DNA of 64,000 bases from Cupriavidus oxalaticus (GTDB lineage Bacteria; Pseudomonadota; Gammaproteobacteria; Burkholderiales; Burkholderiaceae): the NCBI RefSeq assembly GCF_016894385.1, contig NZ_CP069812.1:1240001-1304000 (forward strand), given 5' to 3'. Below, piece by piece: positions 7,499 through 64,000 of this stretch. A model generated the notes under the pieces. The model saw only the letters and a list, made by a program, of their open reading frames with translations, ran no database searches and was not told where the DNA came from. The position numbers were made by a program, and so were the translations under genes. Positions within the stretch are counted from its first letter, which is position 1; the number at the start of each line of letters is the position of its first letter.

Positions 7499-7921
7499 AT
7501 GTCGGACAAATCCAGCGAACGCATCGCGTTGCCGCCGATCCCGGCCAAGCGCTACTTCACCATCGGTGAGGTGAGCGAACTTTGCGCCGTCAAGCCGCAT
7601 GTCCTGCGCTACTGGGAGCAGGAGTTCACGCAGCTCAAGCCGGTCAAGCGCCGCGGCAACCGCCGCTACTACCAGCACCATGAAGTGCTGCTGATCCGGC
7701 GCATCCGCGAGCTGCTGTACGAGCAGGGCTTCACCATCAACGGCGCGCGCAACCGGCTCGACGAAGGCCGCCATCACACCGCCGCTGCGGCGGAAGCCGC
7801 TGACGAACGCCGCGAGGAAAGCCCGGCAGCCTTGTCGATCGATGTAGCCGGTCTGCGCAACGAACTGGTCGAGGTGCAGCACCTGCTCGCCCAGCTGCGC
7901 GAGATCGCGAAGCACGGATAA
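7499..7921 (+). CDS. MerR-family transcriptional regulator
   Basis: 140 aa with an N-terminal MerR winged helix (FTIGEVSELCAVKPHVLRYWEQE, residues about 19-41, then RRYYQHHEVLLIRRI) and a C-terminal helical stretch likely to dimerise. A MerR gene directly after ihfA and before tRNA-Pro is the usual proteobacterial arrangement. The effector is unknown; no metal-binding cysteine pair typical of MerR/CueR is seen at the C-terminus. Confidence 0.92.
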   Translation: MSDKSSERIALPPIPAKRYFTIGEVSELCAVKPHVLRYWEQEFTQLKPVKRRGNRRYYQHHEVLLIRRIRELLYEQGFTINGARNRLDEGRHHTAAAAEAADERREESPAALSIDVAGLRNELVEVQHLLAQLREIAKHG

Positions 7922-7938
7922 TTTTGTGCGTCAGAAGC

Positions 7939-7968
7939 TAGTCATGCGAGAAATGCTTCTGATATAAT
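7939..7968 (+). promoter_or_regulatory. Probable sigma-70 promoter of tRNA-Pro
   Basis: A perfect TATAAT at 7963-7968 lies 10 bp before the mature tRNA. A weak -35 (TAGTCA, 7939-7944) is spaced 18 bp upstream. Confidence 0.6.
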
Positions 7969-7978
7969 CTTCTTCTTT

Positions 7979-8056
<78 letters not shown>

Positions 8057-8062
8057 GTAAAT

Positions 8063-8096
8063 AAAGGCCCGGACGGCATTGTCGTCCGGGCCTTTT
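8063..8096 (+). terminator. Intrinsic terminator after tRNA-Pro
   Basis: A 12-bp perfect stem (AAAGGCCCGGAC / GTCCGGGCCTTT) with a 9-nt loop and a short T-tract. Two direct copies of TGTCTAACTTG follow at about 8096 and 8115. Confidence 0.85.
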
Positions 8097-8153
8097 GTCT
8101 AACTTGGGTGCGACTGTCTAACTTGCATTCGCATCGCCCCCTCCTTGGCGTGT

Positions 8154-8762
8154 ATGGCAAACGTAGATTGGGTTACCGTTGGCGCAGGTTTCGTCGGCGC
8201 CCTTTTGGGGGGTGGGGCGACACTGCTTGGAGTCCGCTGGCAACTGTCTACGGCTCAGAAGGATCAGAAGGATCGTGAAGATCGTCATCACGCAGCGATC
8301 CTAAAAGCGGTTCATGACGAGCTGGAAACCCTGTGGGATCAGTACTTGCTTGGAGTCGGGAATGACATTGCCGCGCTGCCGAGCGGACAGCCATTTAAAG
8401 CGTACTGGCCGGTCTCAAACGACTATTTCACCGTATTCCACAGCAATGCGGTATTCCTTGGCCATTTGCGCGATGACGATCTGAGAAAGTCGCTCATCGT
8501 TGCCTACGCAGGGGCAAAAGGGCTGATCGACTCGTTCAGACTCAATAACGCGATGGTCGAGCGCTTTGAGAATGCTGACGCATTTGCGCTCCAGAGTCCC
8601 ACGCCAGCAGCCCAGCATGTCGCTAGGTCTCATCTGCAAGTACTAACCAGTTACGCGGCCGTGTTGAAACAAGGCCACGTGGAAATGGAGGTGGCGGTGA
8701 AGGACGCGCTGCGGCGGTTGAGGAAAGCTGGCGTTCTCGCTCAAAACTCCGGAAAATCCTAG
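8154..8762 (+). CDS. Membrane-anchored helical protein of unknown function
   Basis: 202 aa from the ATG at 8154; a TTG at 8145 is the alternative. Residues about 6-25 form one glycine-rich transmembrane segment ([19 protein letters not shown]), followed by a charged coiled stretch ([13 protein letters not shown]) and a soluble alpha-helical domain. I do not recognise the family. It lies between tRNA-Pro and the integrase, transcribed toward it, with the two stop codons abutting. This attachment-site edge is a frequent place for phage cargo such as exclusion or defence genes, so that role is possible but unproven. Confidence 0.75.
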
Positions 8763-9860
8763 CTAGGGATGCTTTCGTACTGGGCGAACACGCTCGATCT
8801 CGCGCGCCTTGGTGTAGTGCGCGGTCATTTCCGCCGTTGTGTGCCCGGCTAGCGCTTGGGCCGCCGCGGCGCCGGCTTGTCTGCGCAGATCCGTCAGGGC
8901 CTTAGCACGCAAGTCGTGAAAGTGCATCCCTACCAAGTGTCGCGGGTCAGGAGTTTCCCCACTCTCCGCGCAGCTCTTTTCATACCGCTGCCTAGCGCGC
9001 TGGCAAGCTCGCTTCCACGCTGTCTGTGCGCCGCTGTACGTGAATCGTCCGCCGCTCTGCGTGCAGATCACCGGCCCGATGGCCTTAACCTTGCCTGCCT
9101 TCGCGCTATCCAGCGTCGCCTGTAGATCTGGCGTCATCTCGATCAGCATCCGAACGCCGGAACTGTTCACCGTCTTTGCTGGGTGGAACATGATTCCTTC
9201 GTCCGAAACGTTCGACCAGTTCAGCGCCAGCAGATCGCCGATCCGCTGCGCTGTTTGGTAGGCCAAGTCGATCAGCGCGACGATGGGTGCGCCGGACGGC
9301 GTGGGCTTGTTGTTGTTTCCGAGCAACGCCGCGGCGCGCACGGCTTGAAGTTCCGCATCGGTGATGTAGCGGTCACGTTTGCCCTCGGTAGCCCCTGCAA
9401 CTTCCGTCACGGGATTGGCGTTCCGAAGCCCCTTCCGGACGGCAAAGGTGAACATCACTGATAGCAGCGCCCGGTACTTATTACTGGCATTCGGCTTCGC
9501 CTCGAAATGCTTGTCCAGGAAACGGGCGATGTCCTTGGGCTCCACGTCCTCGACGAGCCACTGATCATCGAACTCCGACCGGATGAACGTGGCCATGCGC
9601 CTATATTCCTCCTGCGTCTTGGGCGCATAGGAGCCAAGCTTGGCGAGAAGCCAGGCGTCGACCAAGGCCGGCATGGTGTTCATTCGCCGCTCGTCCCGGT
9701 CTCGGTTGATGCTGGCCAGAGCCGTGTAGAGCGCGGTCAGGCCGTCGCTCACCCGGCAGAGCTTATGCCACTTTCGACGGATGTCTACGAAGTACCAGGC
9801 GCCGTTCTTCTCATAGACGCGCGATGGCAGAGGGGAGGCATTCTTGCGCCGACCGATCAT
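8763..9860 (-). CDS. int: Phage tyrosine-recombinase integrase
   Basis: 365 aa. Catalyses integration and, with an excisionase, excision of the prophage. An N-terminal arm-binding region and a SAM-like core-binding domain (residues about 60-150) precede the catalytic domain. The catalytic residues are visible as Arg in TAQRIGDLL, HDLR, the GH of LAGHTTAEM and the nucleophile Tyr in AHYTK. Its start overlaps the stop of the DUF4224 gene (ATGA), so the two are translationally coupled and the integrase is the last gene of the leftward PL operon. Confidence 0.95.
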   Translation of the reverse strand: MIGRRKNASPLPSRVYEKNGAWYFVDIRRKWHKLCRVSDGLTALYTALASINRDRDERRMNTMPALVDAWLLAKLGSYAPKTQEEYRRMATFIRSEFDDQWLVEDVEPKDIARFLDKHFEAKPNASNKYRALLSVMFTFAVRKGLRNANPVTEVAGATEGKRDRYITDAELQAVRAAALLGNNNKPTPSGAPIVALIDLAYQTAQRIGDLLALNWSNVSDEGIMFHPAKTVNSSGVRMLIEMTPDLQATLDSAKAGKVKAIGPVICTQSGGRFTYSGAQTAWKRACQRARQRYEKSCAESGETPDPRHLVGMHFHDLRAKALTDLRRQAGAAAAQALAGHTTAEMTAHYTKAREIERVRPVRKHP

Positions 9861-23894: not shown

Positions 23895-25511
23895 ATGATC
23901 CGCGACCAGTTCCTGCTCGACATCTCCGAAGAGATCATCGTTGACAACTTCGCTGGCGGTGGTGGGGCCAGTTGCGGCATTGAGCTCGCACTTGGCCGAC
24001 ACGTCGACATCGCCATCAACCACGACCCCGAGGCCGTGGCGATGCACGCCATGAATCACCCGCAGACCGAGCATCATTGCGAGTCGGTGTGGGACGTGGA
24101 TCCGCTCGACTTGGTGAAGGGCCGGCCGGTAGGCCTCGCCTGGTTCAGCCCGGATTGCAAGCACTTCAGCAAGGCCAAGGGCGGCAAGCCGCGCGACAAG
24201 AAGATTCGAGGCCTGGCCTGGGTGGCAATGCGCTGGGCGGCACTGGTCCGGCCGCGCGTGATCATCTTGGAGAACGTCGAGGAGTTCCAGACTTGGGGGC
24301 CTCTTCTCGATGACGGCAACCCGTGCCCGAAGCGAAAGGGCGACACGTTCCGCTCGTTCGTCCGCCAACTGAACGAGAAGGGCTATGCCGTCGAATGGCG
24401 AGAGCTGCGCGCGTGCGACTTCGGCGCTCCGACCATCCGCAAGCGCCTGTTCCTGATCGCCCGCTGCGACGGCAAGCCCATCGTCTGGCCGGAACCCACG
24501 CACGGCGCGCCGGGTAGCACCGCGGTGAAGGCAAAGCAGCGCAAGCCGTGGCGCACGGCCGCCGAGTGCATCGACTGGTCGATCCCGTGCCCATCCATTT
24601 TTGAGCGCCCGCGCCCGCTGGCGGAGGCTACCCAGCGTCGCATCGCGCGCGGTCTGCGCCGCTACGTCATCGACGCGGCCGCGCCGTACACCGTACGGCT
24701 GCCAGCTGCCACCATGGCGCCAATAGTGACTGAATGCGCCAACGCATCCAGCCAGCGCGCTTTCCGCGCCGACGAGCCGCTCCGCACGCAATGCGCCGAG
24801 GTCAAGGGCGGCCACTTCGCGCTGGCGTCGGCAACCCTGATCCAAACAGGGTACGGCGAGCGGGCCGGCCAGGCGCCGCGTGCGCCCGGACTGGACAAGC
24901 CGCTCGGCACGGTCGTCGCCGGCGGCGCCAAGCATGCGCTCGTGTCTGCCTTCCTGGCTAAGCATTACGGCGGCAACTACGATGGGCCCGGCGTTGGCCT
25001 GAATGAGCCTGCCAGCACCATCACGACCGCCGACCACCACGCGCTGGTCTCGTCCAACCTGGTGAGGCTACGCGGCGAGTGCACGGGTAGCCCGACCGAT
25101 GTGCCGACGCCGACTGTGACCGCCGGCGGCACGCATATCGGCGAAGTCCGCGCCTTCCTGGTGAAGTACTACAGCGAGGGCGGCCAGGACCAGGATTGCC
25201 GCGACCCGATGCACACCATACCGACCAAGGACCGTCTCGGCTTGGTGACGGTCGCTGGCGAGCAATACCAGATTGCCGACATCGGCATGCGCATGCTGGA
25301 GCCGCATGAACTGTACGCCGCGCAGGGTTTTCCCGCTTCCTACGTGATCGCGCCGGTGATCAACGGCCGGCGCCTGCCCAAGCATGCCCAGGTGCGCATG
25401 TGCGGCAACAGCGTGAGCCCGCCGATGGCCGCCGCGCTGGTGCATGCAAACGTGCCGGATATGGCGAGTTGGCCGGCGCGAGAGGCGAAGCGGATGGGGG
25501 TGGCTGCGTGA
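23895..25511 (+). CDS. dcm: DNA (cytosine-5) methyltransferase
   Basis: 538 aa. Motif I (DNFAGGGGASCGIE) is at residues about 17-30, the catalytic Cys in SPDCKHFS near 82, motif VI ENVEEF near 123, motif VIII GAPTIRKRLFLIA near 178, and motif X CGNSVSPPMAAA near 503. A large region of about 300 aa between VIII and IX is the target-recognition part; it contains repeated TVxAGG-like units. No restriction enzyme is adjacent, so it is an orphan, most likely protecting phage DNA from host restriction. Specificity is not predictable from sequence. Confidence 0.93.
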   Translation: MIRDQFLLDISEEIIVDNFAGGGGASCGIELALGRHVDIAINHDPEAVAMHAMNHPQTEHHCESVWDVDPLDLVKGRPVGLAWFSPDCKHFSKAKGGKPRDKKIRGLAWVAMRWAALVRPRVIILENVEEFQTWGPLLDDGNPCPKRKGDTFRSFVRQLNEKGYAVEWRELRACDFGAPTIRKRLFLIARCDGKPIVWPEPTHGAPGSTAVKAKQRKPWRTAAECIDWSIPCPSIFERPRPLAEATQRRIARGLRRYVIDAAAPYTVRLPAATMAPIVTECANASSQRAFRADEPLRTQCAEVKGGHFALASATLIQTGYGERAGQAPRAPGLDKPLGTVVAGGAKHALVSAFLAKHYGGNYDGPGVGLNEPASTITTADHHALVSSNLVRLRGECTGSPTDVPTPTVTAGGTHIGEVRAFLVKYYSEGGQDQDCRDPMHTIPTKDRLGLVTVAGEQYQIADIGMRMLEPHELYAAQGFPASYVIAPVINGRRLPKHAQVRMCGNSVSPPMAAALVHANVPDMASWPAREAKRMGVAA

Positions 25512-50905: not shown

Positions 50906-52117
50906 ATGGGAACTCCAACCTCGGTCAAGTGGTACAGCAACGTATCGGCGACAGCACCGACCCTCAACGGACTCGCCGGCTCACTGATCGCGCTGCTCGA
51001 TGCGGTGCTGAAGGATGGCTACGGGCTGAAGACGCTCGACTCGTTGATCGTCGCCGGCAACGTCGCCACCTGCACGGTGTCGGCCGGGCACGGCTATCTG
51101 AGCAATCAGGTGGTGGTCATCGCCGGGGCGACGCCATCCGGACTGAACGGCGAAGTCCGGATCACCGTGCTGTCGGCGACAGTGTTTCGCTTCAGCACGG
51201 CCGGTATCTCGGATCAGACTGCAACGGGCACGATCACGGCCAAGATCGCGCCGCTGGGGTGGACCAAGCCGTTCTCCGGCACCAACCTCGCGGCCTACAA
51301 GCCCAGCGATCCGCAGGCCACCGGCATGTATCTGCGCGTCGATGACACGCAGATCGTGACCGCGCGCCATGCCCGCGTGACCGGCTGCGAGGCGATGGTC
51401 GACCTGAACACGTTCACCGGTCAGTTCCCGACCACTGCGCAGCTCAATGGCGGCATGTTCTGGGGCAAGTCCGCGACGCTGGACAGCACCGCGCGCAACT
51501 GGTACGTGATTGGCGACGAACGGTGCTTCTACATCGGCATCTCGCCGCACCCCACCAATGCGGCCAATGGCTTCATCTTGTACTTCGCTGGAGATATCCT
51601 GCCGCTGGGCAGTCAGGATATGTACCACTACCTGCTCAGCGGTCCGAGTTCCGATTTCACCACGTATGGGTCGGGCGGGCTCACGCACTGCATGAGTTGC
51701 GGCGGCCCTGGCGGGGCGGGGCAGATGTACCTGCCCCGACTGAATTCGCAGCTGGGCGGGTCAGTCCTTGCCACCCGTGCAGGGGCGCTGAACTGGGGCA
51801 CCGACTACTCAGGGAGCACCAGCTACGCCGGCGGTTTACTGCCTAGCTTCCCGAACCCGATTGACGGGGCGGTGATGGTGACGCCGGTCCTGATCTTCGA
51901 GGGGGGCAACGCCAGCCAGCGGGGCGCACGAGGGTTCGCCCCCGGGATGTATCACCTGCCGATCAACGGATCGGCCACTGCCTACAACCACCTCGACGTA
52001 GTAACCGGTGTGGACACCATGCCCGGCAAGACCTTCCTAGCGGTACGAACCGGCAACCCCGCACAAACCGCGTACGCCGGGTGCACGTTGTTCGATCTGT
52101 TCGGCCCTTGGCGCTAA
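50906..52117 (+). CDS. Fibre-like tail protein, copy A
   Basis: 403 aa, paralogue of the next protein. The N-terminal 135 residues share GLAGSLIALLDAVLKDGYGL, ISDQTATGTITAK and PLGWTKPFSGTNLAAY; both end in D-(L/I)-F/T-GPWR. The central part differs (Cys pair in HCMSCGGPGGAG). Likely a tail-tip/receptor-binding component; no enzymatic motif seen. Confidence 0.75.
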   Translation: MGTPTSVKWYSNVSATAPTLNGLAGSLIALLDAVLKDGYGLKTLDSLIVAGNVATCTVSAGHGYLSNQVVVIAGATPSGLNGEVRITVLSATVFRFSTAGISDQTATGTITAKIAPLGWTKPFSGTNLAAYKPSDPQATGMYLRVDDTQIVTARHARVTGCEAMVDLNTFTGQFPTTAQLNGGMFWGKSATLDSTARNWYVIGDERCFYIGISPHPTNAANGFILYFAGDILPLGSQDMYHYLLSGPSSDFTTYGSGGLTHCMSCGGPGGAGQMYLPRLNSQLGGSVLATRAGALNWGTDYSGSTSYAGGLLPSFPNPIDGAVMVTPVLIFEGGNASQRGARGFAPGMYHLPINGSATAYNHLDVVTGVDTMPGKTFLAVRTGNPAQTAYAGCTLFDLFGPWR

Positions 52118-52129
52118 GGAGAAATCGAC

Positions 52130-53296
52130 ATGGCAGTGAAAATGTATAGCAGCTACGCCGCTGGCGGCGGGCACCCGGTCATGTCGGGCGTGTCGGGGGC
52201 GCTGATCGCGCTGCTGGACGCCTGTCTGAAGGACGGTTATGGGCTGAAGACCGTCGACTCCATCGTGGTAGCAGGTGGCGTGGCGACGTTGACGATCAAC
52301 GCTGGGCACAGCTTCGAGATCGGCAGCACTGCGCTGATCTCCGGTGCGACGCCCATCGGGTTGAATGGCGACAAGAAGGTGCTGACGGCATCCACCACAC
52401 AGGTGACCTTCGACGCGGCCGGCATTAGCGATCAGACCGCGACCGGCACCATCACCGCCAAGGTCAGTCCCTTGGGTTGGCTGAAGCCGTTCTCGGGCAC
52501 GAACCTGGCCGCCTACACCTCGGCCGCCCCGGACTCGTACGGCATGTACCTGCGGGTTGACGATACCGGCACCATTGACGGTCGCGTGGTCGGCTACGAG
52601 TCGATGACCGATGTCAACACCGGCACCGGGGCGTTCCCAACCGTCGCGCAGCTCAGTGGGGGCATGTACGCCGGCAAGTCGTACCAGGGCAACAGCACCG
52701 CGCGCAACTGGATTCTGGTCGGCGACGAGCGGTTCTTCTACCTGTGGGTCGAGACCAATGCGCTGGCCGCCGGTCTGATGTGGGGCTTTGGCGATCTGCT
52801 GGGCTACAACCCCGGAGATCTGTGGGGCGCTGCGCTGTGCGGTCAGAACGCCAGCCAGGTGAATTACACGGGTCAGTACAGCAGTGAATGCCTGTCGTAT
52901 TCGAGCAACATTTCTCAGTACTACATGCCGCGTGCCGCTTATGGTCAGCCCGGGGCGCTCAAGGTGCAGCGCCTCGGCGGCATGTTCTGGAACACTCAGG
53001 CCGCTTCGGGAGCGAGCCAATATTCGGCGTCGATGCTCAAGTTTCCCAACAATGCCGACAACGCGCTGTTGATTACGCCGGTGTACCTGGTGGTAGCCGG
53101 GCAGGGTCAGCGGGGCCGTCTCCCCGGTTTTTTCCACACGCCGCAGGATCTGACCGTGTCCGGCATCAACCACCGCGACCGATACTCCAGCATGCCTGAC
53201 CTGCCGGGGCGGATTGGCATGATGCTGCGACATGGCGGGCCCGGCTTCGCTGCCAGTTGCTATTCGATGCTGGATATCACCGGACCCTGGCGTTAA
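52130..53296 (+). CDS. Fibre-like tail protein, copy B
   Basis: 388 aa, 12 bp after copy A with AAGGAG before the ATG. Same N-terminal block (GVSGALIALLDACLKDGYGL, PLGWLKPFSGTNLAAY) and the same GPWR end, but a diverged middle (LGYNPGDLWGAALCGQNASQ). The tandem duplication followed by divergence suggests host-range variation. Function inferred. Confidence 0.75.
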   Translation: MAVKMYSSYAAGGGHPVMSGVSGALIALLDACLKDGYGLKTVDSIVVAGGVATLTINAGHSFEIGSTALISGATPIGLNGDKKVLTASTTQVTFDAAGISDQTATGTITAKVSPLGWLKPFSGTNLAAYTSAAPDSYGMYLRVDDTGTIDGRVVGYESMTDVNTGTGAFPTVAQLSGGMYAGKSYQGNSTARNWILVGDERFFYLWVETNALAAGLMWGFGDLLGYNPGDLWGAALCGQNASQVNYTGQYSSECLSYSSNISQYYMPRAAYGQPGALKVQRLGGMFWNTQAASGASQYSASMLKFPNNADNALLITPVYLVVAGQGQRGRLPGFFHTPQDLTVSGINHRDRYSSMPDLPGRIGMMLRHGGPGFAASCYSMLDITGPWR

Positions 53297-58626: not shown

Positions 58627-59100
58627 ATGTTCAGCGCAATCCTTTCATTCCTCGGCGGCTCCGCATTCCGACTGATTTGGGAACAGATCAGTCAGATGTG
58701 GACCGCCCACCAAGAGCAGAAACACGAACTGGAGCGCATGCGGCTGCAGGGCGAGCTTGACGCCGCGGCGCACGAGCGCAACCAGGCGGCAATCAAACTG
58801 CAGGCGGATCTCGGCGTGCAGACCATCCGCGTGCAGGCTGAAGCGGATCTCGCGCGGCTCGATGCGACCACGTTCGGGCAGGCGGTCACCGAATCCATGA
58901 AGCCGTCTGGCATCGCACTGGTCGACACCTGGAACGGCATCGTGCGGCCGGCAGCCGCAACCATCGCGCTGATGCTGTGGTGCGTGGCGCTGAACGCGCA
59001 GGGCTTCAAGATGACCGAGTGGGACCGCGAGCTGGTGGGCGTGATCCTCGGCTTCTTCTTCGCCGTGCGCGTGCTGTCGTCGACCCGGAGCAAGGTATGA
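58627..59100 (+). CDS. Holin, 3TM type
   Basis: 157 aa from the ATG at 58627, AGGAGG 6 nt upstream. An N-terminal hydrophobic segment (MFSAILSFLGGSAFRLIW), a long charged coiled coil (residues about 25-90) and two C-terminal spans (AAATIALMLWCVALNA, LVGVILGFFFAVRVLS) match holins of the 3TM superfamily. Forms the inner-membrane lesion for lysis. ATGA overlap with the endolysin. Confidence 0.85.
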   Translation: MFSAILSFLGGSAFRLIWEQISQMWTAHQEQKHELERMRLQGELDAAAHERNQAAIKLQADLGVQTIRVQAEADLARLDATTFGQAVTESMKPSGIALVDTWNGIVRPAAATIALMLWCVALNAQGFKMTEWDRELVGVILGFFFAVRVLSSTRSKV

Positions 59101-59558
59101 CGGTCGCCGAGTTTCGCGCGCTGGCAGTCCAGGTTGCTGCTGCGCTGGCTCGGCGCTTCGAGGGGCTGTATCTGCGCCCCTACCTGTGCCCGGCCGGCGT
59201 CCCAACCATCGGCTACGGGGCGACCCGGTACCTGGACGGACGCGCGGTGACGCTGAAAGATCCGCCCATCACCCGGGTGGTCGCCGAGGTAATGCTGCTC
59301 GACCAGGTGCGCACGGTCTATCTGCCGGCGGTGCTGAGGCTCTGCCCGGGTATCGACACGCCCGAGCGCCTGGCTGCGATCATCGACTTCGCGTTCAACC
59401 TCGGGGCTGGCAACCTGAAGGCGAGCACGCTGCGCAAGCGGATCAATGCGAAGCGATGGGCAGACGTTCCGGCCGAGATCCGGAAGTGGAACCGCGGCGG
59501 CGGTCGCGTACTGCGCGGCTTGGTGCTGCGGCGCGAGGCAGAGGCAGCGTTGATATAG
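59097..59558 (+). CDS. GH24 endolysin (lysozyme)
   Basis: 153 aa. The signature FEGLYLRPYLCPAGVPTIGYGAT gives the E-8aa-C-5aa-T version of the catalytic triad (FEGLYLRPYLC then PAGVPTIGYG), with Cys in place of Asp, a known variant among phage lysozymes. Cleaves peptidoglycan. The N-terminus has an Ala-rich weakly hydrophobic stretch but no clear signal-anchor. No Rz/Rz1 spanin gene was recognised next to it. Confidence 0.9.
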   Translation: MTVAEFRALAVQVAAALARRFEGLYLRPYLCPAGVPTIGYGATRYLDGRAVTLKDPPITRVVAEVMLLDQVRTVYLPAVLRLCPGIDTPERLAAIIDFAFNLGAGNLKASTLRKRINAKRWADVPAEIRKWNRGGGRVLRGLVLRREAEAALI

Positions 59559-59593
59559 TCGGGGCTAACTTCTGATAGAAACGTTGCTAAACC

Positions 59594-59719
59594 GGGTGAC
59601 AAAATTTGTCACCCATCGCACAGACAGGGTGACAAATTTTGTCACCTCTACACCCCTCTGTGGGTGACAAAATTTGTCACTTACTCGCCGTGTTCGCAGC
59701 CGCACTGACAAAAATTGTC
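59594..59719. promoter_or_regulatory. Array of four TGTC dyads upstream of the pilin gene
   Basis: Inverted repeats of GTGACAAA/TTTGTCAC around one central base: 59594-59614 (10-bp arms), 59628-59646 (9-bp arms), 59664-59680 (8-bp arms) and a weaker GACAA/TTGTC at 59707-59719. Centres are 33, 35 and 41 bp apart. They lie about 35-160 bp upstream of a sigma-54 promoter, where enhancer sites are expected. TGTC-type half-sites are known for PilR upstream of pilA in Pseudomonas, so PilR binding is the leading idea. Confidence 0.8.
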
Positions 59720-59753
59720 GTTTCACCCCGGGTTTTAACTCATTCGAGGTACC

Positions 59754-59769
59754 TGGCACACCTCATGCT
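59754..59769 (+). promoter_or_regulatory. Sigma-54 promoter of the pilin gene
   Basis: TGGCACACCTCATGCT: GG and GC separated by exactly 10 bp as in -24/-12 promoters, 57 bp before the pilin ATG. A close match to TGGCAC-N5-TTGCW. Confidence 0.8.
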
Positions 59770-59825
59770 CTATTGCCTGCCAGCAGCAATTCGCTGCGTA
59801 ACTTAAAATTCTTGGGGGTCAACTC

Positions 59826-60299
59826 ATGCTGAAAAAAGCGCGGATGGGAAAACGGGTACAAAAAGGCTTCACGCTGATCGAACTGATGATCGTGGTCGCG
59901 ATCATCGGTATCTTGGCGGCAATTGCTATCCCGCAATATGCTGACTACCAGCAGCGCACCAAGGTGTCCGGCGCCGCAGGCGGAATTGGGGCATTTAAGA
60001 CGGCTGTTGCTATGTGTGCTCAGGACAAGGGTACGCTCACTGGTTGCGGCGGTGGTGTGGGCGACATTCCGGCGGACATCGCTGCAGCCAATGCTGGCGC
60101 AACGGTCGCGTATGTCGATCAGCTCACGACGGCCAACGGTATTATTGATGTGATTACCACCGGTACTACCTCGGCGGGCGCTAAGATGGCGCTGAAGTAC
60201 ACCCCTGCCTTGGCAAACGGCGTTGTGCAATGGACGATTACGGGCACTGGCTGCGATGCTACGACGCCTGGTCGTGGCATTAAGTGCGCGGCCAACTAA
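59826..60299 (+). CDS. pilA: Type IV major pilin PilA
   Basis: 157 aa. A short basic leader ([14 protein letters not shown]) ends in Gly before the methylated Phe of [20 protein letters not shown], the class III signal cut by PilD; Glu5 of the mature protein is present. A C-terminal Cys pair (GTGCDATT...GIKCAAN) can form the D-loop disulphide. Mature pilin is about 143 aa. It is preceded by a sigma-54 promoter and dyad array and followed by its own terminator, so it is a monocistronic, PilSR-type unit. Whether it belongs to the host or the prophage is unresolved. Confidence 0.95.
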
Positions 60300-60319
60300 G
60301 CGTTTAGTTGCGAACATCG

Positions 60320-60346
60320 GGCGCCCGCTGTATGGGGCGCCTTTTT
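60320..60346 (+). terminator. Intrinsic terminator of pilA
   Basis: A perfect 7-bp GC stem (GGCGCCC / GGGCGCC), 8-nt loop, then TTTTT, 20 bp after the pilA stop. Confidence 0.85.
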
Positions 60347-60362
60347 CTATCTGGAGTATCCG

Positions 60363-60608
60363 TTGACGCTGCCCATCCTACCCAGCGCAGCCGAATTGGT
60401 CGCCTCGCTGGACGAGGAACTGATCGATCTGCTGTACGAGCGCCTCAAGATGGCGGCCGAACTGCCCCCGATCGAGACGCCCGATGACGTGGCCCGGGAG
60501 GTTCAGCGCATGCGCAATCTAGCTGCGATTTATCGCGTGCCGCCGGATCTCGGGGAGGCGATGGCGCTTGCGCTAATAGAAGCGCGCAAGCAGTGGAAGG
60601 GTGCATAA
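60363..60608 (+). CDS. Small helical protein, possibly chorismate-mutase-like
   Basis: 81 aa from a TTG at 60363 with GGAG 6 nt upstream. The helical pattern SLDEELIDLLYERLKMAAEL followed by PDDVAREVQRMRNLA and a third amphipathic helix resembles the AroQ chorismate mutase fold, but the catalytic N-terminal Arg and the Lys of the family are not evident. The function could be unrelated. Lies just after the pilA terminator. Confidence 0.5.
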   Translation: MTLPILPSAAELVASLDEELIDLLYERLKMAAELPPIETPDDVAREVQRMRNLAAIYRVPPDLGEAMALALIEARKQWKGA

Positions 60609-60806
60609 AGGCAAAAAGGCCCGCCATTGCACCACATCACTCTTCGAGGGGTCATGTAGTACGGCGAGCCGCCGACGAGTCGGCATGCGTAGTGTCCAGC
60701 AATTCGCGGCGCTAGGCAATTGGCGTGTCGTCTGCGCCCAACAGCTTAACGGTCCCAGCAATGCTTCGCAGCCGGTTAGGCGCGCAGCCTTTGGCGGGCA
60801 TCGGCG

Positions 60807-63955: not shown

Positions 63956-64000
63956 GGCGCTAGTTCGCTAGCTCGGCCCGGTAGGCCGACCAGAAGTAGT

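Follow-up and report, generated by a model that had tools for sequence, protein, structure and literature searches.

Known effects of prophages on the type IV pilus include shutting it off and swapping a minor pilin at its tip. The closest precedent for the locus described here is P-FimU, a minor pilin encoded by the Pseudomonas prophage JBD68. P-FimU is reported to replace the host version in the pilus and is thought to block superinfection while pilus function is retained (PMC12826054). Both proteins are prophage-borne type IV pilins. P-FimU, however, is a minor tip pilin, whereas the protein described here is a major-type subunit. A second difference is that its gene has a sigma-54 promoter and a dyad array like those of the host pilA.

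Other prophage functions reduce or stop pilus assembly: Tip and Aqs1 inhibit PilB, and Pf phages block the pilus (PMC12826054, PMC11436027). These cases resemble the present one in that a prophage would control the type IV pilus as a phage receptor. They differ in that assembly is reduced or stopped there, whereas in the present case the filament would be changed by an added subunit. A further likeness is found in Xylella fastidiosa, where XF0487 is annotated as a major pilin within the prophage-like region xfp6 and appears as an entry in an expression list (PMC2605562); the relevant passage of that paper gives no control region or function.

Two PHROG families match the pilin described here, namely phrog_3433, named “pilin” and placed in the moron category (1.1e-13), and phrog_27437, of unknown function (1e-26). 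Phage-borne pilins are thus already catalogued, in entries that give no mechanism, regulation or position. Among the literature matches listed, which were represented by titles and the beginnings of abstracts and covered few subscription journals, none reports a major pilin that is carried by a phage and controlled in the PilR/sigma-54 manner.

The locus lies in a stretch of 64,000 nucleotides from Cupriavidus oxalaticus, referred to here as the window. The sources given for several of the best homologues also point to the genus Cupriavidus. A complete pilin gene, located inside a mobile element and carrying the control layout of the host's core pilA, can be read from it with firm confidence. 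The left edge of the element is a tRNA-Pro gene (7979-8055, located with ARAGORN), whose last 45 bp (8011-8055, forward strand) form the attL core, as defined by direct-repeat comparison and by empty sites. A tyrosine integrase gene follows on the reverse strand (8763-9860; PF00589, 1.7e-15; phrog_1 integrase, 1.1e-44). When positions 7901-8763 are compared with positions 30001-100000, a span that takes in the window and 36 kb of contig sequence beyond it, there is one long direct match of 45 bp, and the runner-up measures 13 bp. This second copy of the core, attR, is found beyond the window at 64735-64779 (genome C2:1304735-1304779). The two repeats therefore delimit an element of about 56.7 kb, with the pilin gene inside it.

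An earlier reading from the sequence alone had tentatively placed the pilin inside the mobile segment, unless the att core were very short, since no second copy of the tRNA-Pro 3' end occurs between the endolysin gene and the end of the window. Both statements hold, since the search to the right of position 64000 meets the missing copy 735 bp beyond the window's end. An att repeat between endolysin and cassette would have put the pilin outside; the interval 59559-59593 contains no direct repeat of at least 12 bp with 7901-8763. Comparison with prophage-free relatives agrees. The tRNA-Pro site is uninterrupted in three of the five relatives fetched (L309, L310 and L311). At these sites the left flank, 96% identical over about 7 kb, runs up to the 3' end of tRNA-Pro and is joined there to the right flank with nothing in between, and the 45-bp core is present in a single copy. 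The other two sites are not clean: L312 lacks a detected left flank or tRNA, and L313 has the core and the right flank only. The pilin motif is absent from all five fetched stretches, which amount to 10 kb at each clean site. The same prophage is also recorded in IMG/VR as a viral contig of 56,202 bp, which shows no difference in the 14,175 bases compared.

These results leave almost no room for the alternative, also raised from the sequence, that the prophage merely inserted next to a native pilA which is not phage-borne. The attR copy lies past the pilin, the gene is missing from the three clean prophage-free sites, and the core pilA of the host is found at C2:536559, about 0.76 Mb away. The pilin gene sits within the mobile element, not beside it.

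The element has an integrase, structural genes, flanking att repeats and an uninterrupted counterpart site in relatives, and is thus of the temperate-phage type. A tailed-phage late module occupies 33855-58337 on the forward strand and encodes the large terminase, portal, head protease, major head protein, tape measure and tail proteins, of which the last belongs to phrog_6079. It is followed by a gene for an endolysin of the phage lysozyme type (59097-59558, forward strand; PF00959, 1.2e-29; phrog_7, 3.1e-43); the domain scores refer to the open reading frame 58977-59558, within which the start is read at the ATG at 59097. Position 59558 is the last base of the endolysin stop codon, and the next gene, on the same strand, is the pilin.

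Some other genes of the prophage may be mentioned. Two neighbouring tail genes at 50906-53296 both match phrog_9998 and resemble the product of a tandem duplication, which is also seen in the prophages of genomes G039 and G041. A DNA methyltransferase gene is located at 23895-25511 (phrog_116, 2.4e-103). Downstream of the pilin, on the forward strand, is an 81-aa open reading frame (60363-60608) with a weak likeness to chorismate mutase type II (E 0.01, below the cut-off). Related frames stand beside several pilin cassettes: one at L074:10467-10724 is 94% identical, one at about 4214-4426 in L055, the G039 prophage, is 65% identical, and two beside the pilins of L085 and L090 are about 41% identical.

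The pilin gene itself (59826-60299, forward strand) encodes 157 residues and was recognized by motif, profile and structure model. The prepilin methylation motif is matched by PF07963 (1e-10) and by TIGR02532 above its cut-off. A leader and the N-methylation motif GFTLIE are present, with the processing site at KG/FTLIE. The head domain gives no match to PF00114 (Pilin) at 1e-3, whereas the native pilin and that of the G039 prophage do match. An AlphaFold2 model built from 32 sequences (mean pLDDT 88.7, pTM 0.75) shows an extended helix at the N-terminus together with four strands. In Foldseek it yields five matches at E of at most 0.001 and a sixth at about 0.001, comprising Haemophilus PilA, Neisseria pilins and the PAK pilin (5vxx, 5.9e-6; 1oqw, 1e-3), with TM-scores of only about 0.5. 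The confident PDB matches are PilA and PilE structures, and a phmmer search of the PDB sequences also returns pilins. Judged by its modelled fold, which is that of T4a pilins, the gene encodes a type IVa-like pilin. A protein search of named phages produced a single weak match, to a Salmonella record (36%, E 8e-4), and BFVD returned nothing below E 0.88.

The region between endolysin and pilin contains four dyads of the form TGACA-N5-TGTCA (59594-59722, forward strand), a motif that also precedes chromosomal pilA genes. The dyad TGACAAAATTTGTCA is matched with 0 or 1 mismatch at 59597, 59630 and 59665 and with two mismatches at 59706, and the first extended dyad starts 35 bp after the endolysin stop. 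With up to two mismatches, 0.04 matches to TGACAAAATTTGTCA are expected in 64 kb; with at most one, every match in the 6.69-Mb genome falls in this array. A sigma-54 (-24/-12) promoter, CTGGCACACCTCATGC, follows at 59753-59768 on the forward strand. The gene is closed by an intrinsic terminator (60319-60347, forward strand) with an 8-bp stem (60319-60342) and a T run. The terminator scan is weak by itself, because shuffles of the region contain 1.3 such sites on average; the z-score of the hairpin is -1.92. All parts of the unit that the sequence-only reading had described as complete, namely dyad array, sigma-54 promoter, pilin and terminator, are thus located. A sigma-70-type promoter is not found in 59500-60700, where 0.5 would be expected. 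Nor is a terminator-like site found between endolysin and pilin, so that late read-through could also express the pilin.

Seven pilin-like matches occur in the host genome, the prophage gene included. The sole other near-full-length match is the core pilA, at C2:536559-537020, whose protein is 64% identical to the prophage pilin and whose promoter has the same layout. The two pilins have three differences in the first 36 mature residues, and share 60 of 107 residues in the head, which is therefore 44% different. The sequence upstream of the native gene is common to G045 and G057, as judged by eye. Its control region has two related dyads, each with two mismatches, and a sigma-54 box, compared with four near-perfect dyads in the prophage. 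The distance from the start of the proximal dyad to the box is 47 bp in the prophage, 45 bp before native pilA and 46 bp in the G039 prophage; dyads at matching spacing and a sigma-54 box are thus common to the cassette and the chromosomal promoter.

The host also has the PilB and PilQ families above cut-off. About 14 kb from pilB, at C2:3308227-3309918, lies the gene for an NtrC-type regulator, and next to it one for a PAS/HisKA kinase. This pair is taken here to be a putative PilSR, on the basis of sequence resemblance and of position; none of the profile models searched assigns that name. The sequence-only reading had proposed looking in the host for another pilA with pilSR. The pilA has been found, and for pilSR this probable regulator/kinase pair is a candidate.

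Since cassette and core pilA promoter are laid out alike, the pilin is probably driven by a host PilR-type activator and RpoN, and the dyads would be probable sites of that activator. Control of host type can be called likely for the prophage pilin. An RpoN element is present at the Ralstonia pilA gene, for which RpoN1 and PehR have been proposed as joint regulators (PMC4371752). In Pseudomonas, PilR works with sigma-54 and PilS interacts with PilA (PMC6058289). PilR is a candidate for the activator of the prophage cassette; the one proposed in Ralstonia is called PehR.

Dyads and box precede most other pilins at the correctly oriented loci, sometimes with more mismatches; three loci with minus-strand pilins (L023, L028 and L038) are left out of this survey. 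L021 has a sigma-54 box without such dyads. Perfect dyads are also seen in L077, L085, L087 and L089, and one copy stands before the second pilin of G011. As mobile copies are not the only ones with perfect dyads, the idea of a stronger array in the prophage is suggestive only. The dyads are unlikely to be operators of a phage repressor, because with up to one mismatch they have no others in the genome and because like dyads stand before chromosomal pilA genes. A scan of IMG/VR for tandem dyads returned 11 stretches, and a pilin motif is present in the fetched DNA only at the record of this same prophage; dyads alone therefore do not predict pilins. The 10 other viral contigs (L063-L065 and L067-L073) contain tandem GTGACA-N5-TGTCAC and no pilin motif in the fetched DNA. 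They may hold the operators of other regulators.

The 1220-aa tail protein of the prophage is encoded in 3 of 60 genomes of the genus, its own included, and 4 of 398 genomes of the family encode the last tail protein. In two of these four prophages, those of G000 and G039, the endolysin is followed by a pilin preceded by dyads and a sigma-54 box. The G041 prophage has other small genes in the pilin slot, and no pilin is found within the 19.9 kb fetched of the G185 prophage. The gene has the form of a moron: it brings a promoter and a terminator of its own, and it is found in the window and G039 but is missing at that place from G041.

The G039 prophage belongs to another species. Between its cassette and that of the window, DNA identity is 90% in the leader and N-helix, 76% in the sigma-54 region and 54% in the last part of the pilin, and the heads share 27 of 95 residues. 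The same slot thus holds pilins with different heads. An N-helix that is kept while the head varies is as expected if selection varies the exposed head, on the comparison of these sequences. A third such cassette, from another species and not part of this phage family (L074, genome G025), is located near a tyrosine-recombinase-like frame (4.9e-6, just under the cut-off). In the 19.9 kb of L074, only the pilin and the 81-aa gene match proteins of this prophage, and the pilin head shares 83 of 102 residues with that of the G039 prophage. The isolated phages Lodos, PCA1 and ACF1, which have related tails, have no annotated pilin by their tail or lysis genes, and JBD68 is not among the tail matches listed.

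A search of IMG/VR with the pilin alignment returned 215 stretches that encode relatives, and the best 80 of these were analysed. They contain 73 distinct pilins, 69 of them with at least 110 bp upstream. A sigma-54 box, defined as TGGCAY-N7-GC at -110 to -30, is present before 21 of the 69 (the prophage's own record included) and before 15 of the 45 that are embedded by at least 2 kb. As a control, the starts of other long ORFs in these loci have the box in 33 of 4201 cases, a figure that includes overlapping ATG starts and is to be read as a rate, not as a count of independent genes. Two placements recur. In one, seen in phages with homologous tails (L096, L097, L120 and L162), the pilin is by the tail/lysis end, on the strand opposite to the late genes. 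In the other, it is beside helix-turn-helix regulator genes; seven cases were recognized by eye (L114, L116, L117, L146, L148, L156 and L168), and L116, L146 and L168 were checked with PHROGs. Starting instead from the tail protein, 5 of 80 loci (the best 80 of 99) have a pilin, all five with a sigma-54 box; one of the five is the prophage's own record, two have the same pilin, and there is overlap with the census made from the pilin. The fetched stretches of the other 75, some of which end at contig ends, contain no pilin.

A small lipoprotein-like frame with a shared DFGA/DFG-VV stretch was noticed by eye near the boxed phage pilins of L114, L116, L150 and L156. That of L116 (510-857) has no Pfam or PHROG match.

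The model preferred for this locus is that of a lysogenic-conversion cassette, which would alter the major pilin of the lysogen and, with it, probably phage adsorption. It is judged somewhat more probable than its negation. Weighing against it are the missing PF00114 match, the perfect dyads outside mobile copies, the 75 of 80 tail-protein loci and 2 of 4 family prophages in which no pilin is found, the three isolated phages without an annotated one, the 48 of 69 IMG/VR pilins that lack the box, and the possibility of late read-through. In this model a temperate tailed phage, integrated in tRNA-Pro, brings in a type IVa major-type pilin next to its lysis genes, together with an activator array and its own sigma-54 promoter and terminator. 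In the lysogen, a PilR-type activator of the host, together with RpoN, would turn on the prophage pilin alongside native pilA. Once processed, the prophage pilin may join the pilus machine of the host, giving mixed or replaced pili. Extra phage pilin, made from the more regular dyad array, would be expected to lower the native pilin, because PilS reduces pilA transcription when pilin is abundant, as reported for Pseudomonas (PMC6058289). An altered filament would then change the adsorption of phages that use the pilus, leading to superinfection exclusion with pilus function kept. The sequence-only reading had likewise suggested that a phage-borne pilin could replace or mask the host pilin and block superinfection. 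Such an effect on pili and phages is an inference.

Other roles can be imagined for the same gene. The pilin may serve the fitness of the host by varying twitching, surface attachment, biofilm formation or DNA uptake, with any effect on phages incidental. Regulation of host type suits a gene that serves the host, and the cassette of L074 is of the same type and lies outside the phage family, yet the recurrence of pilins by the tail/lysis end or by regulator genes is more specific than such a gene needs, and this role is rather unlikely, if a serious contender. Still less likely is a selfish or neutral passenger, in which array, promoter, pilin and 81-aa gene would move as a cassette of little benefit. 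Its occurrence both in prophages and beside the integrase-like frame of L074 would fit, as would the 48 of 69 distinct IMG/VR pilins (from the best 80 of 215) that have no sigma-54 box. The frame, promoter and terminator, however, are intact both here and in the G039 prophage, and N-helix and promoter are kept while the heads diversify.

A role in the lytic phase is improbable. Pilin made by read-through could saturate or alter receptors and so keep progeny off debris and dying cells, and the gene does stand directly after the endolysin, on the same strand and with no terminator-like site between them. It has, however, its own promoter of the host pilA type, and in L096, L097, L120 and L162 the pilin opposes the late strand.

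If the lysogenic-conversion model is correct, a prophage with a major pilin under control of the host's type could remodel the entire filament and still keep the pilus. The prophage may thereby change a surface that other viruses use for entry, and a phage-driven route for spreading pilin diversity would exist. A broader and more tentative proposal, possible but short of probable, is that several temperate-phage lineages carry a standard pilin cassette, consisting of activator array, sigma-54 promoter, conserved N-helix and exchangeable head, which would take over the major pilin via PilS-PilR feedback. Pilin serotypes would then spread like phage-borne O-antigen serotypes.

Paired pilin genes were also observed in two further stretches. 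In L043 (G011:C15, 1874-3385), tandem pilin genes have unlike leaders and control regions and near-identical bodies, as if gene conversion had taken place between a core-type and a mobile-type pilin. In L044 (G057:C1, 8743-9719), a second pilin gene is located about 50 bp after the core pilA.
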